DNA of 48,245 nucleotides from Nocardiopsis potens DSM 45234 (GTDB lineage: Bacteria > Actinomycetota > Actinomycetes > Streptosporangiales > Streptosporangiaceae): positions 1 through 48,245 of the forward strand of contig NZ_ANBB01000070.1 in assembly GCF_000341105.1 (NCBI RefSeq), in the 5' to 3' direction. The translations under genes were made by a program, and so were the position numbers. Below the pieces are notes generated by a model. It had not been told where the DNA came from and searched no databases. It saw nothing but the letters and a program-made list of their open reading frames with translations. Shown piece after piece: positions 6,675 to 30,821 of this stretch. The number at the start of each line of letters is the position of its first letter. Position 1 is the first letter of the stretch.

Positions 6675-6738
6675 CGATGATCTTGACGTTGCGGGGGTAT
6701 CAGAGCGCTCTGATACCCCCGCAACGTCAAGATCATCG
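6675..6738. terminator. Perfect 64-nt palindrome between convergent genes
   Basis: Bases 6675-6706 are the exact reverse complement of 6707-6738, with no spacer and no mismatch over 32 bp. It lies between the converging small membrane protein gene and the GntR gene (stop 6759), so termination of both transcripts is a likely role. Its outer 14 nt (CGATGATCTTGACG) recur at 20608-20621, and the outer 11-mer recurs inverted at 22390-22400. It may therefore belong to a dispersed palindromic repeat family. Confidence 0.85.
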
Positions 6739-19756: not shown

Positions 19757-19822
19757 GGTCCTCTCCGAGCACGACACCAGTCCTTCCGGACACGATCACG
19801 AGTCCTTCGGGACACGACGAAA
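19757..19822 (+). repeat. Three 22-bp direct repeats upstream of the HNH gene
   Basis: Units at 19757-19778, 19779-19800 and 19801-19822 share the pattern GGTCCTY-CGRRCACGA; units 2 and 3 contain AGTCCTTCSGGACACGA. Each has a small GTCC-N4-GGAC inverted repeat. The array ends 20 nt before the HNH start codon, in the probable 5' leader or promoter. Confidence 0.6.
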
Positions 19823-19842
19823 AGGCAGGTCGAAGCAGAGCC

Positions 19843-20589
19843 ATGTCCCGTTCTCCCCGGCGCCCCTCCGCACGCGGCCCCCGCGACCGCCGCAGGACCG
19901 GCGCCTACATCACCATCGTCGCGGCCCTCGCGATCGTCGCCTTCGTGGTACTGGTGATCGACCACGGCCTGACCGGGGCGCTGCGGGTGCTCACCGGGCA
20001 GGACCCGGAGGGCGGCCAGGGCACCGCCGGCCCCGGCACCTCCGCCGACGCCGAGCAGGCGGAGCGGCTGCTGGCCGAGGTGCCGGTCGAGGACCCGCGC
20101 CCGCGCGGCGACTACGAGCGGGACGAGTTCGGCTCCTCCTGGGTGGACACCGACGGCAACGGCTGCTCCACCCGGAACGACATCCTCTCCCGCGACCTGG
20201 ACCGGGTGCGGGCCGCCGACGACTGCAAGGTCACCGAGGGCGTGCTGGACGACCCCTACACCGGGGAGCGGCTGGAGTTCACCTCCGAGGACCCGCAGGC
20301 GGTGCAGATCGACCACGTGGTGCCGCTCTCGCTGGCCTGGCGGATGGGCGCCTCGGAGTGGGACCGCGACACCCGGGTCGAGTTCGCCAACGACCCGGAC
20401 AACCTGCTGGCCTCGGACGGCCCGGCGAACATGTCCAAGGGCGACGCCGGGCCGGGGGAGTGGCAGCCCTACGAGGGCTTCCGGTGCGAGTACGCGGTGG
20501 CTTACGTCGAGGTGGTGCACCGCTACGGGCTGGCGGTCTCCGCCGAGGACCGGGAGGGCCTCGACGCCATGCTCGCCACCTGCTCCTGA
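19843..20589 (+). CDS. Membrane-anchored HNH nuclease (DUF1524/GmrSD C-terminal type)
   Basis: The 248-residue protein has a basic N-terminus, one hydrophobic segment (about 21-43, ITIVAALAIVAFVVLVIDHG) and no clear cleavage site, so it is secreted or membrane-anchored. The catalytic part (about 90-248) has DEFGSSWVDTDGNGCSTRND, QIDHVVPLSLAW (the HNH His) and FANDPDNLLASDGPANMSKGD, the pattern of actinobacterial extracellular DUF1524 nucleases. They are presumed to degrade DNA outside the cell for nutrition or competition; no immunity gene is seen next to it. ATG 19843 follows an AAGGCAGG sequence. Confidence 0.85.
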   Translation: MSRSPRRPSARGPRDRRRTGAYITIVAALAIVAFVVLVIDHGLTGALRVLTGQDPEGGQGTAGPGTSADAEQAERLLAEVPVEDPRPRGDYERDEFGSSWVDTDGNGCSTRNDILSRDLDRVRAADDCKVTEGVLDDPYTGERLEFTSEDPQAVQIDHVVPLSLAWRMGASEWDRDTRVEFANDPDNLLASDGPANMSKGDAGPGEWQPYEGFRCEYAVAYVEVVHRYGLAVSAEDREGLDAMLATCS

Positions 20590-20621
20590 CCTCCCTCCGC
20601 CCCTCCCCGATGATCTTGACG

Positions 20622-21318
20622 CTGGGGTGAAGGTTCAAACCGGCGGCGACGGCACCGGTGGGGGCGGGGGGCGGGTGGTCGCCCGGGTGCAGCGCCTCAC
20701 GGGGTCGGGGTTAAAGCCGGTGGCGAGGGCGGGAGGGGGTGCCTGCCGGTCGGTCGGGTGCGGCGTCTCGCGGAGCGAAGGTCAAGGCGGGCGGCGACGG
20801 CGGCAGTAGGCACCGGCCGACCGGTCGGGTGCGGCGTCTCGCGGAGCGAAGGTCAAGGCGGGCGGCGACGGCGGCAGTAGGCACCGGCCGACCGGTCGGG
20901 TGCGGCGTCTCGCGGGGCGAAGGTCAAGCGGGCGGCGACGGCGCCGGTGGGGGCGGGGGCGGGTGGTCGCCCGGGTGCGGCGCCCCACGGGGTCGGGCTT
21001 AAAGCCGGCGGCGAGGGCGGGAGGGCGTGCCTGCCGGTCGGTCGGGTGCGGCGTCTCGCGGAGCGAAGGTCAAGGCGGGCGGCGACGGCGGCAGTGGGCA
21101 CCGGCCGGGCGGTCTGGCGCGGCGCCCCGCAGAGCGGGGGCCCAAGCAGGCGGCGAGGGCGGGAGGGCGTGCCTGCCGGTCGGTCGGGTGCGGCGTCTCG
21201 CGGAGCGAAGGTCAAGGCGGGCGGCGACGGCGGCAGTGGGCACCGGCCGGTCGGTCTGGCGCGGCGCCCCGCAGAGCGGGGGTCCAAGCAGGCGGCGAGG
21301 GCGGGAGGGGCAGAGCGG
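20622..21318 (+). repeat. Left array: about ten 71-bp tandem units
   Basis: Unit starts (CGGGTGCRGCG or CTGGCGCGGCG) lie at 20684, 20755, 20826, 20897, 20972, 21043, 21114, 21185 and 21256, all 71 bp apart except one unit of 75. A partial unit precedes them. Units 20755 and 20826 are identical. A conserved core is GAAGGTCAAGG followed by CGGGCGGCGACGGCGG. There are two alternating subtypes in the right half of the array (CGGGTG and CTGGCG starts). Confidence 0.85.
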
Positions 21319-21460
21319 CCGCGTTCACCGGCCCGGCCCGCGCGTGCTCCCGGCGAGGGGAGGCGGCGCCCCGGCGGCGCGGGCCGACCCGCGCCGCTCG
21401 AGTCCGCCAGGGGGCCTTATCCCTGTATGCCCGGTTTGCGGCGAGGAACAGGCGAGTGTG

Positions 21461-21770
21461 GGAGCGCCCTGCGCACCGCGAGAGCACCCCGATTACATCT
21501 ACCAGCGAGTAGTAAGCCTCGAAGCCCCCGCCACCCCCTCTCCGGTTACTCAGAGTGGCCAAGGTGGGGCCTCTCGGCAGGGCAAAAGCGGCATCTCGCC
21601 CCCGCACTGCCCCTGCCCGGGTTCCGGCCCCCTGCATCTCGGTCTTGCGGGCGGCTCGAACCCTCCATCACCGGCCCGGCCGGGGCGATTCGGGCCCTCA
21701 GAGGGCCGATCCGGACCGGGATGCGCGCCCGGGAATCACCGGGGTGCTCTCGCGGTGCACAGGGCGCCCC
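21461..21770. repeat. Central 30-bp inverted repeat
   Basis: Bases 21461-21490 and 21741-21770 are inverted copies with 28 of 30 matches (core GGGGTGCTCTCGCGGTGC in the right arm), separated by 250 bp. The intervening DNA is less GC-biased than the arrays and shows no convincing gene. Confidence 0.7.
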
Positions 21771-21869
21771 TCCCCGCCATCACCGTGGGTATTTACCCAG
21801 GTCAAAGAGGGGCAGTGGTTTCCGGAGCGGCTGGCCCCGGCGCCCGGGCGACGCGGGCACGGCGACCCC

Positions 21870-22298
21870 GCCCCCTGCCCCCGCCCCGACCGCCCCACCC
21901 GCTCTGCCGCACCCGACCGACCGGCCGGTTCCCCTGCCTGCCGTCGCTGCCCGCTTGAACCTTCGCTTCGCGGGGCGCCGCGCCGGACCGACTGGCCGGT
22001 CCCCACCGCTGCCGTCGCTGCCCGCTTGAACCCCGACCCCGTGAGGCGCCGCGCCCGGGTGAGGCGCTCGGCCCCGCCCCTACCTTCGCCGTCGCCGCCC
22101 GTCTTGGCCTTCGCTCCGTGGGGCGCCGCACCCGACCGACCGGCCGGTTCCCCTGTCTGCCGTCGCTGCCCGCTTTAACCCTGGCCCCGTGGGGTCCGAC
22201 ACTCGGGCGACTGCCTCCGCCCCGCCCCCGCCGCTGCCGTCGCTGCCCGCTTGAACCTTCGCCCCGTGGGGCGCCGCGCCGGACCGACCGGCCGTTCC
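21870..22298 (-). repeat. Right array: about six inverted 71-bp units
   Basis: The reverse complement of the left-array unit recurs here, anchored on GCCGC at 21906, 21977, 22048, 22125 and 22273, and a diverged copy near 22194. The first two steps are exactly 71 bp, later ones 69-79. The recurring core is CTGCCGTCGCTGCCCGCTTG. Divergence rises to the right. Confidence 0.75.
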
Positions 22299-22400
22299 CC
22301 TCCCTTTCCCTTTCCCTCCCCCTCGCCCCTGGTGCGGTGTTGCAGCGGACACGGAAAGAGAACCGCCCTCGCCGACAGGGCCGCCGCGCCAAGATCATCG

Positions 22401-22854
22401 CTTCTCCGCCAGGTCGCGGTTCGGCCGCCGAACGGTTGCGATTCGGGTGCGCCGGTGGCCGGAACCGGTCAGCCGCGCACGGTGATCCGGTGGAGCCGGA
22501 GCGGCCCCGCGAGCGTCCTTTCCGTGGCGGGAGGCGGCGCAATGCCCGGGTGATCCGCCGGTGGGCGATGCGTCGCAGCTGGTGAGCGGGGGTGGAGAGG
22601 TGGCAGGGGCATGCGGGGGAGGAGGCCGGGAACGGGGTGCCGGCGGGCCGAGGAGGCGGCCCTCCCGGGCGCCGGGCGCCCGAAACCGTCCCCGGGCCGG
22701 GTCAGTATGCTCGTCGAGGCCACCGACGCCCCCCACCGGCTTCCCCGGCCCTACCCCGCTCAGGCGGTCCCGTGCCGACGACCGCCGCATCGACGCACCC
22801 ATTCCTTCGCCGGAACCGGTATCCGACGACTCGACGAACAGGTTCAGCACCACG
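22401..22854. other. Intergenic region before the 22932 gene
   Basis: No supported gene. A TATGCT hexamer near 22707-22712 could be a -10 element for the forward genes, with no convincing -35. Open frames here are GC-driven and lack family features. Confidence 0.3.
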
Positions 22855-22935
22855 ATGAGCGCAGCGTTTCCCCCGCGGGGCGGACGGCCTGTGACCGGTC
22901 CGCGCATCCGGCCGACCCGGGTCGGTGCGGCATGA
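22855..22935 (+). CDS. Possible 26-residue upstream ORF overlapping the next gene
   Basis: ATG 22855 opens a 26-codon frame whose TGA (22933-22935) overlaps the ATG of the next gene (ATGA). The downstream gene has no recognisable ribosome binding site, so coupling to this frame could explain its translation. The peptide is basic (RGGRPVTGPRIRPTRVGAA at its end) with no known family. Its own Shine-Dalgarno is weak. Confidence 0.3.
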   Translation: MSAAFPPRGGRPVTGPRIRPTRVGAA

Positions 22936-24362
22936 ACGCCGGCACCGGCCCCGAAGCGCAGCACCACGCGGTCATCGTCGTCATCGCCCCGGACGAGCGC
23001 AGCGCCGAGGTCACCATCGAGGGCCGCACCCGGGTCGTGCACGGCGAGAGCCCCCGGCAGACCCGGAGCGGGGCCCTGGACGCCGCCGCCTCCTACGCCG
23101 CCCACCTCGGCCGGCCCGTCCTGGTCAACGCGCGCGACGCCAACGGCTCCTGGCAGCTCTCGGTCTCCCCGACCGGGGTGGTGCAGACCGTCGGCGGCAA
23201 CGACGCCGAACTGGGCGCGAGCCGCGAGAAGAAGTCCGCCTCCGGCAAGGGCCGCAAGATCCTGATCGGTACCGCCTCGGCGGTCCTGGTGCTGGGCGTG
23301 CTCGGCGGCGCCGGCTACTTCGCGCTGGGCCTGCTGCCCGACGGCGGGACGAGCGGAGCCTCCAGCGACGCGGAGACGCCGATCCCCTTCGACGCCCTGC
23401 CCGTCCCGCCGGGCTTCGCCGCGGAGGCCGCCTGGTCCCACCCGATGGCCCCCGGCCTCGACCCCACGGTGGCGCCGGACGGCGGCAGCGCGGCGTTCGT
23501 CTCGGAGGGCGAGGAGCTCACCCTGATCGGCCCGGACGGCGCCGTGCGGTGGGCGGAGAAGCTCCCGGTCCCCGCGGACGAGGTGCAGAACGGCCCCTAC
23601 TTCGTGGTGGACGGGGACGGCTACGGCGTCGCGCTGCTCGGCAAGGGGCGGATGTGGCGCTGGTCCGCCGAGGGCGGCGAGCCGGTCGAGACGGAGGTGC
23701 CCGAGGGCGGCCGCGTCTCCTTCGCCGGCGGCGCCCCGCTGGTGGAGGGCGGCGACGGCGACGCCTTCGTCACCGCCTCCGGCGGCGGCCTGGAGCAGAT
23801 CGAGGTCCCCGACTCCGGCTACGGCGCCATGCTCTACGACGGCGAGCAGGTGCTCAGCGCGGTGCTGAGCGGCCCGTGGCAGTGGGCGCGGCCGGACGGC
23901 GGCGGAGTGAAGGAGGTCGAACCGGACGAGCCGAAGGGCGGGGACGAGATCGACCGGCTGCTCACCGCCCGCGCCGAGCACGTCGTGCTGCTGTGGACCG
24001 CGAAGCGCGGCGACGACGCGATCGTCGCCGTGCACGACTCCCGCGACGGCTCCGTCGTCGCGCATGCCTCCGTCGACCCGGACGAGCTGTCCGAAGCGCA
24101 CTGGGAGCAGGGCGGTGACGTCGCCGCCTACGGCCCGGTCGTGTTCGACCTGGCCGCCGGTGAGGCCACCGTGACCGGCCTCGTGCCGGAGAGCGCCTCG
24201 GACGGCCGGGTCTTCGGTGAGATCGACGGCGGCGCGGTCGCCGTCGACGGTACGGGAGAGGCGACCGAGATCGACCCGGACACGGCCCGTCCCTGGGGTC
24301 TGCTGGACGGCAGGGCGGTCGTCGCCGCCGGAGAAACCCTCTACGGCCTCTCCCCGGAATAG
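22932..24362 (+). CDS. Single-pass membrane protein with large extracytoplasmic domain
   Basis: I do not recognise a named family. The 476-residue protein has a cytoplasmic N-domain (about 10-90, with repeated beta-strand-like segments AVIVVIAPDERSAEVTIEG), a basic linker, one membrane helix (about 109-135) and a C-terminal region (about 150-476) rich in short strands with recurring GDG/DGG turns and aromatic residues, suggestive of a beta-propeller. The arrangement resembles membrane-bound sensor or secretion-accessory proteins. It is followed after 27 nt by an LPXTG protein gene and is probably co-transcribed with it. ATG 22932 is the only reasonable start and overlaps a small upstream frame by 4 nt. 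Confidence 0.75.
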   Translation: MNAGTGPEAQHHAVIVVIAPDERSAEVTIEGRTRVVHGESPRQTRSGALDAAASYAAHLGRPVLVNARDANGSWQLSVSPTGVVQTVGGNDAELGASREKKSASGKGRKILIGTASAVLVLGVLGGAGYFALGLLPDGGTSGASSDAETPIPFDALPVPPGFAAEAAWSHPMAPGLDPTVAPDGGSAAFVSEGEELTLIGPDGAVRWAEKLPVPADEVQNGPYFVVDGDGYGVALLGKGRMWRWSAEGGEPVETEVPEGGRVSFAGGAPLVEGGDGDAFVTASGGGLEQIEVPDSGYGAMLYDGEQVLSAVLSGPWQWARPDGGGVKEVEPDEPKGGDEIDRLLTARAEHVVLLWTAKRGDDAIVAVHDSRDGSVVAHASVDPDELSEAHWEQGGDVAAYGPVVFDLAAGEATVTGLVPESASDGRVFGEIDGGAVAVDGTGEATEIDPDTARPWGLLDGRAVVAAGETLYGLSPE

Positions 24363-24389: not shown

Positions 24390-25160
24390 ATGTCGCACGC
24401 ACGACGCGCGTTCGGCGTCGCGGCCGCGGGCCTGCTGGCGGCCGGCTTCTCTGCGGCGCCGGCCCTGGCCGACGCCGACGAGCAGCCGGTCGAGCCGGTC
24501 GAGGCGCCGGTCGAGCCTGCCGAGGGTTCCCCCGAGGGCACCCTCATCACGCTCGAGGTCGGCAACCCGCTGGACCCGATCCTCGACCCGATCCTCCCCG
24601 ACCCGCCGGACCCGGACCCGACGGACCCCCCGCTGCCGCCGGACCCGGGCCCCACGGACCCGCCGGAGCCCCCGGACCCGGACCCCACGGATCCGCCGGA
24701 CCCGCCGGACCCGGACCCGACCGACCCGCCGGACCCGGACCCGACGGACCCCCCGCTGCCGCCGGACCCGGGCCCCACGGATCCGCCGGACCCGCCGGAC
24801 CCGGACCCCACGGATCCGCCGGACCCGCCGGACCCGGACCCGACCGACCCGCCGGACCCGGACCCCACGGACCCGCCGGACCCGGGCGACCCGGGCAACC
24901 CGCCGGACCCGGGTGAGCCGACCCCGCCGCCGGCCGACGAGCGTCCCGGCGACGGCTCGGACGGCGGCTCCGGCGACGAGGGCTCGGCTTCGACCGGCAC
25001 CTCCGCCTCCAGCGGCTCCTCGGACGACGAGGGCCCGACGGAGCTGCCGAAGACGGGCGCGAGCGACCTGGACGGCTTCGTCCTGGGCGGCGTGCTCGCC
25101 ACCGGCCTCGGCGCGCTGACGATCTACGCCAGCCGCCGCAAGGCCGCCCCGCTGGCCTGA
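24390..25160 (+). CDS. Proline-rich LPXTG cell-wall-anchored protein
   Basis: The 256-residue protein has a signal peptide (cleavage likely after ALA near residue 28), a short Val/Glu/Pro stretch, and a repetitive central region (about 65-185) built from DPTDPPDPPDPDP-like units. A Gly/Ser/Asp-rich linker, LPKTG at 219-223, a hydrophobic segment and a basic tail (ASRRKAAPLA) follow. This is a complete sortase sorting signal, so the protein is covalently attached to peptidoglycan. The Pro-Asp repeats probably form an extended wall-spanning stalk; no adhesive head domain is visible. AAAGGAGCAGG directly precedes ATG 24390. No sortase gene is in the window. Confidence 0.88.
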   Translation: MSHARRAFGVAAAGLLAAGFSAAPALADADEQPVEPVEAPVEPAEGSPEGTLITLEVGNPLDPILDPILPDPPDPDPTDPPLPPDPGPTDPPEPPDPDPTDPPDPPDPDPTDPPDPDPTDPPLPPDPGPTDPPDPPDPDPTDPPDPPDPDPTDPPDPDPTDPPDPGDPGNPPDPGEPTPPPADERPGDGSDGGSGDEGSASTGTSASSGSSDDEGPTELPKTGASDLDGFVLGGVLATGLGALTIYASRRKAAPLA

Positions 25161-30619: not shown

Positions 30620-30730
30620 GTGTCGCCTCCCCCTGCCGGCGGGGCGCGCCGTCCGGGCACCGCGCCTTTCCGCCGGACCGTTCTCCGCCCCGACCCTACC
30701 GCCCGCCCCGCCTGGGGATCCGGCACCGCT

Positions 30731-30821
30731 CCGTGCTTTCGGAGGGCGCTTCCCCGTGCTTTCGGAAGACGCCGCTCCGCGCTTTCGGAAGGCACCGCCC
30801 GTGCTCGCGGAGGTCGCCTTC
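30731..30821. repeat. Four 23-bp tandem repeats
   Basis: Units start at 30731, 30754, 30777 and 30799 and share CCGTGCTTTCGGAAGGCGCC with substitutions (periods 23, 23 and 22). They lie in the divergent intergenic region between the metallo-hydrolase (start 30619) and yccF (start 31051). The rest of this 431-bp region shows no gene. Confidence 0.7.

Follow-up and report, generated by a model that had tools for sequence, protein, structure and literature searches.

A dispersed family of fold-back-like intergenic repeats in Nocardiopsis potens with copies gained or lost between species

Results

Anatomy of the element

The window, that is, the whole 48,245-nt stretch analysed here from the draft genome of Nocardiopsis potens DSM 45234 (G000), contains a large palindromic element behind a nuclease-like gene. 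The features discussed below are as follows.

19843..20589, + strand: upstream gene, GmrSD_C/HNH nuclease-like; its stop codon lies 18 bp before the element start
20608..22400, no strand assigned: whole element, 1793 bp end to end; the orthologous site in the congener G004 (L174) is without any of it
20608..20624, + strand: left end, a truncated half of a 64-bp palindrome (CGATGATCTTGACGCTG), identified from the sequence
20624..21310, + strand: left array of direct ~71/77-bp units (inverted-pair search, TRF, spacings)
21405..21905, + strand: conserved core without coding signal (copy alignments)
21461..21491, + strand: core inverted-repeat arm A, 94% complementary to 21740-21770
21483..21514, + strand: conserved module 1, containing CATCTACCAGCGAGTAG at 21495-21511 (low non-consensus windows)
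21715..21770, + strand: conserved module 2, terminating in inverted-repeat arm A' (low non-consensus windows)
21906..22305, - strand: right array, with the left-array units in inverted form (inverted-pair search, TRF)
22331..22368, - strand: right subterminal segment ('G-end'), a weak match, 7 edits to a motif derived from L106
22369..22400, - strand: right end, half of the 64-bp palindrome; over 32 nt it is only 59% complementary to the left end of this copy
6675..6738, no strand assigned: free-standing 64-bp palindrome with ends as in the element (C70:6676-6737), in a convergent gene context

A first-pass annotation of this DNA had described direct units on the left facing inverted units on the right, and this layout is borne out. 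TRF finds a left array at 20677-21310 (period 71, 8.9 copies) and a right array at 21906-22305 (period 71, 5.5 copies), each also detected at a doubled period (142, 4.2 copies, at 20707-21309; 148 at 21940-22300). The two arrays pair in inverted orientation through 30 pairs in all, among them 187-nt arms (20624-20810 and 22079-22265) that are 80% complementary. The period of 71 bp in the earlier description stands and its design from a single unit does not: unit spacings across the family (n=292) cluster near 71, 77 and 148 bp, and therefore two kinds of unit alternate. The inverted repeat that it placed in the middle (28 of 30 bp) is a genuine inverted pair with longer arms, of 31 bp, and its exact 11-bp inverted pair is present at the two ends (CGATGATCTTG at 20608-20618 and CAAGATCATCG at 22390-22400). 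It had set aside a CRISPR array, and rightly, since the units adjoin one another, have diverged and change orientation across the centre. The stretch 19800-23200 has no Rfam 15 match at E<=1. The middle of the element is not a spacer; it is a conserved core of ~500 bp. The whole would then read, from left to right, as half palindrome, subterminal segment, array of direct units, conserved core, array of inverted units, subterminal segment and half palindrome.

A dispersed family in two genomes

Searching the block against its own genome and the congeners, a check that the first-pass annotation had proposed for the 71-bp unit, revealed a dispersed family. With the whole block as query, all 40 own-genome candidates that were scored, out of 814 in the first look, match (the block itself and 39 others); they are 74-83% alike over 0.8-1.6 kb, and a centre of ~590 bp is present in all 39 others. 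A 21-base core motif, allowing up to 2 mismatches, has 124 matches in the 6.9-Mb draft genome (61 on the + and 63 on the - strand, roughly one copy per 55 kb) and 13 in G004, with none in the congeners G001, G002, G003 and G005 and none for the reversed motif. An exact 27-mer occurs 68 times in the own genome. For a second core module, with as many as 3 mismatches allowed, G000 has 174 matches and G004 has 6; the surplus beyond 124 may consist of hits on the complementary arm A. Because core and arrays recur at 39 other own-genome places and the reversed-pattern controls give no matches, the pattern is not due to chance.

Seventy-five own-genome copies span 935-1844 bp (median 1379) with boundaries set by similarity, so that 124 copies of median size would occupy about 2.5% of the genome. 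Array lengths vary from copy to copy, which agrees with the earlier suggestion of an intergenic repeat family with expandable arrays; the arrays presumably grow and shrink. Many G000 contigs start or stop within elements (for example C14:201, C18:406, C27:98, C48:169, C71:201 and C98:12), and hence the copy number may be miscounted.

The family has a narrow distribution. A profile of the motif region, run across 297 genomes of the taxonomic family with 13 candidates scored per genome and strict filters, was convincing only in G000 and G004; a third genome, G148, gave one profile match (E 2.9e-5), but neither inverted arrays nor the motif at up to 3 mismatches were seen there. When 60 relatives were queried with 486 bases of the core, 20 genomes reached E<=0.001. 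Long matches were confined to G000 and G004; those in the other 18 covered short stretches of ~23-131 bases, for the most part within the G+C-rich 3' portion, and we took them for chance. No family match was found in plasmids and phages and none in viral contigs, and two patterns had no match in 84,980 species genomes, a collection from which near relatives may be absent. We recognised no published account of the family from titles and abstract openings, a scope in which a paper named for the species could have escaped.

Copies have been gained or lost between species

We used the flanks of 10 end-bearing own-genome loci to find the corresponding places in G004, and read nine of them (L147 was left out). 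For all eight resolved copies, the orthologous G004 site is without core or array on either strand; the positive controls L194 and L119 match in the same test. Five of these sites have a short gap of 0-138 bp, and those of L106, L045 and L114 have 1.0-1.6 kb of unrelated sequence instead; at the ninth locus, L113, one flank was unplaced in G004. For the window copy (L174), the two flanking sequences, 95.7% and 89.1% identical in G004, directly adjoin each other there. The element-free G004 sites examined carry no palindrome either. Inspection of the aligned sites by eye showed no target-site duplication; the bases beside the ends are diverged there.

Of 16 G004 copies that were fetched, 11 have an element or array at the corresponding own-genome place (L118, L119, L120, L121, L126, L127, L128, L129, L130, L131 and L132; L121, L126 and L132 reach contig ends of the own genome, and L127 and L132 were matched by one flank only). 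A further three, L122, L123 and L124, face own-genome sites without an element, L122 and L199 being a reciprocal pair of neighbouring gaps; L125 has no own-genome match among the matches listed, and L133 was left out of the comparison. From the shared and the empty sites together, it follows that the family predates the split of the two species and that gain or loss continued afterwards. Copies would thus come and go as wholes behind genes, with insertion the favoured reading of the element-free sites. We consider it well supported that this is a real and unusual dispersed family of fold-back-like elements with gained or lost copies. The gain or loss, like the ends common to a 64-bp palindrome, lay beyond the view of the first-pass annotation.

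In G004, the copies L122, L123 and L124 have cores that are 98-99% alike, and a related one, L128 (95.6%), lies at a shared site; the arrays of all four differ around near-identical cores. As L122, L123 and L124 occupy sites at which the own genome has no element, their likeness suggests recent copying. Near-identical cores with unlike arrays also fit core conversion, or fast array turnover after copying. Among the 75 aligned own-genome copies, cores are 75-94% alike and nearest neighbours 88% alike at the median; no pair exceeds 93.6%. The own genome thus gives no hint of recent movement, and the similarities point to an old burst. Between G000 and G004, cores are ~70% alike at the median (75 versus 10 copies).

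Ends are common to a free 64-bp palindrome

By a fuzzy search that may include chance matches, palindrome halves flank both sides in 18 of 96 copies and at least one side in 42 of 96; clear ends are absent in 54 of 96. The 18 copies with both ends measure 1139-2023 bp. The same palindrome also occurs alone, at 52 strict sites in G000 and 18 in G004, with none in G001, G002, G003 or G005. Just inside the palindrome halves of the giant copies lie subterminal segments of two kinds, C-end and G-end. The 64-bp palindromes have a C-rich left flank and a G-rich right flank, so that the mirror symmetry extends past 64 bp.

Among 35 distinct 64-bp palindromes, the two arms of a copy co-vary: their complementarity is 0.89, versus 0.79 with shuffled partners and a maximum of 0.82 in 500 shuffles. 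Co-variation of the giant-copy ends is weak, at 0.752 within versus 0.692 between copies, with a shuffle maximum of 0.760 of 2000. Homogenisation between the two arms of a copy, gauged crudely without gaps, comes to a difference of only 0.013 +- 0.006. The geometry would allow the interior to have been inserted into a pre-existing 64-bp palindrome, although, as noted, none stands at the element-free G004 sites examined. In G004, another intergenic tandem repeat of ~54 bp (L157, 2640-2870) begins within a palindrome of the family.

The core is found in both orientations

Relative to the core, and at up to 5 edits, one arrangement is represented by 13 left C-ends and 12 right G-ends and the reverse one by 6 left G-ends and 4 right C-ends; controls on the reverse strand gave none at the same threshold. 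Moreover, the core is inverted at 2 of the 9 shared sites bearing a core in both species (L127/L195 and L128/L083), although these two could be replacements. These mixed orientations suggest that recombination between the inverted arrays would probably flip the core. They also lend some weight to the first-pass idea of a recombination element, whose other half, a role in chromosome organisation, would be conjectural. L045 and L093 carry a G-end on both sides, which is not explained by simple flipping and needs another event.

Conserved modules in a non-coding core

As the first-pass annotation had stated, the block appears to be non-coding: a simple gene-calling model placed no gene inside any of 95 copies, substitutions in the core have no three-base periodicity (0.1035, 0.1079 and 0.0991), and 27 of 29 deletions relative to the core consensus are of 1 bp. 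The minus strand reads AYYSLVDVIGVL in some copies, which resembled a relic protein; with no Pfam match, no codon periodicity and deletions of 1 bp, this candidate was ruled out.

Conservation within the core is uneven. Across 39 copies picked for their similarity over the whole block, independently of the motif, the mean non-consensus rate is 10.4%, falling to 1.4% and 2.1% in the 20-bp windows 21485-21504 and 21495-21514 (module 1) and to 1.4-3.8% in those that span 21715-21764 (module 2); a third low window, 21615-21634, is at 3.8%. The longest low-variation runs, 14 bp at <=3% and 23 bp at <=6%, were attained in 0.92% and 0.26%, respectively, of 5000 column shuffles. CATCTACCAGCGAGTAG is an imperfect dyad (CTAC..GTAG), and imperfect dyads resemble many operators. 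TCTACCAGCGAGTAG is exact in 11 of 15 aligned G004 copies, a biased count in that most were found by that motif. The conserved core motif would most likely be a protein-binding DNA site.

Such conservation in old copies exceeds what a dead parasite needs, and it counts against reading the element as a mobile repeat. A host-maintained DNA element, with a core that is bound by a regulatory or DNA-organising protein, inverted arrays that hold or flip this core, and a spread that is tolerated for the usefulness of the sites, would account for the two modules, for the dyad, for the persistence of TCTACCAGCGAGTAG between species whose cores are only ~70% alike, and for the density of roughly one copy per 55 kb on both strands. 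However, the motif is absent from four of six congeners, sites are gained and lost, and no binding protein is known; there is also the third low window, and conservation may equally mark a site required for movement. We therefore hold host maintenance to be doubtful, if still worth weighing. A bolder version, in which the family is a new class of bacterial element, with a protein-bound core between inverted arrays that recombine to flip it or to convert other cores, and maintained by the host at over 100 sites as a chromosome-organising or transcription-insulating system and not as a mere parasite, we judge improbable.

Copies lie mainly downstream of genes

Of the 95 copies, 86, G004 copies included, have a gene called on both sides. 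These lie between convergent genes in 40 of 86 cases, versus 17 of 172 element-free own-genome gaps (Fisher p 9e-11), and between divergent genes in 5 of 86, versus 60 of 172 (Fisher p 1e-7), against a background of gaps of at least 80 bp that was not matched for gap length; with G004 gaps added, the background is 31/261 convergent and 88/261 divergent. The 64-bp palindromes have a similar context (convergent 13/38, divergent 3/38). Copies would survive mainly downstream of genes, being harmless there or perhaps aiding the end of transcription.

This gene context, with the co-varying arms of the 64-bp palindromes, could suggest a bidirectional transcription terminator or 3'-end stabiliser, of which the small palindrome is the working hairpin and the element a giant form. 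Against it, the large interior is left unexplained, the palindromes examined have no T-run, clear ends are missing in over half of the giants and the core is without RNA covariation; position may merely reflect where insertions are tolerated. We regard this reading as quite improbable.

A structured RNA is more improbable still. The 31-bp core arms could pair, and the consensus fold includes a covariation term, yet none of 8 predicted pairs is compensated in a 111-column alignment, the strongest statistics among the top 70 pairs stem from subfamily splits and short local flips and not from nested compensations, there is no Rfam match, and the complementary form of arm A is present in only 41 of 85 aligned copies. 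A structured RNA core was thus rejected, a family of non-coding RNA genes is very unlikely, and the long double-stranded RNA envisaged earlier would be conjectural. Finally, in a draft genome with several contigs ending within copies, an assembly artefact or collapsed repeat might be suspected, but the architecture recurs with its own flanks at many places, also in G004 (3 contigs), which makes this explanation negligible.

Search for a mobilising enzyme

We found no mobilising enzyme. REP palindromes are linked to Y1 (RAYT) transposases, and a Y1 transposase in the host is the mark of such a system. PF01797 has no match in either carrier, G000 or G004, and matches clearly in the non-carriers G003 and G005 and weakly in G001 and G002. 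RAYT/IS200-type mobilisation was therefore rejected. None of the loci fetched holds an autonomous, transposase-bearing member. Orphan ends that were fetched as possible traces of an autonomous parent proved to be free palindromes, contig-cut giants, a short deletion derivative or chance matches, the last in a gene that we take to be rpsA.

Discussion

Taken as a whole, the observations are best explained by a dispersed, non-autonomous, fold-back-like mobile repeat to which the element belongs as one copy, and we consider this reading likely. An enzyme encoded elsewhere would presumably have moved it in trans, recognising the palindromic ends common to the 64-bp element.

The nearest known counterparts are Foldback elements, described as transposons whose inverted ends are composite, being built from several domains and tandem repeats (PMC3169594). 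The Foldback elements of animals and plants and the nematode Tm1 resemble the present family in having composite inverted ends with tandem repeats, varying unit number, dispersed copies and MITE-like relatives (PMC3169594). The arrangement by which Foldback elements are recognised, inverted tandem-repeat ends around a middle segment, is found here. Unlike Foldback and Tm1 as portrayed there, our element is bacterial, no transposase-bearing member was found among the loci fetched, and no 9-bp target-site duplication was seen (PMC3169594). It also differs in its conserved non-coding core and in outer ends that are common to a separate 64-bp palindrome.

The usual size of MITEs is shorter than 1139-2023 bp. 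The element is ~1.4 kb at the median with inverted arrays, and no parent insertion sequence or target-site duplication was found among the loci fetched and the sites aligned; the 64-bp palindrome is more MITE-like than the giant form. Prokaryotic MITEs are described as non-autonomous and mobilised in trans, and the family is like them in being non-coding, with inverted ends in part of its copies, many intergenic copies and, presumably, movement in trans (PMC10969869). REP sequences are likewise dispersed extragenic palindromes, but of 20-40 bp, compared with 64 bp or ~1.4 kb here (PMC3733652).

The family bears on two wider matters. It offers, in two genomes with empty, shared and inverted sites and a 64-bp relative, a natural system for following the spread of a gene-free palindrome, in which one could ask which enzyme moves it and whether fold-back elements originated independently in bacteria. 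Long inverted repeats are generally held to be unstable in bacteria; here, kilobase-scale inverted repeats are retained by the hundred despite that presumed instability.

Two other repeats in the window deserve mention. Tandem repeats of 33 and 123 bp at 24598-24894 (TRF score 527 for the 123-bp unit) are probably a Pro/Asp-rich coding repeat. At 30722-30805, TRF reports a 23-bp tandem repeat of 3.7 copies; the G004 counterpart of this stretch (L166) holds a perfect 52-bp palindrome with the ends of the element family.
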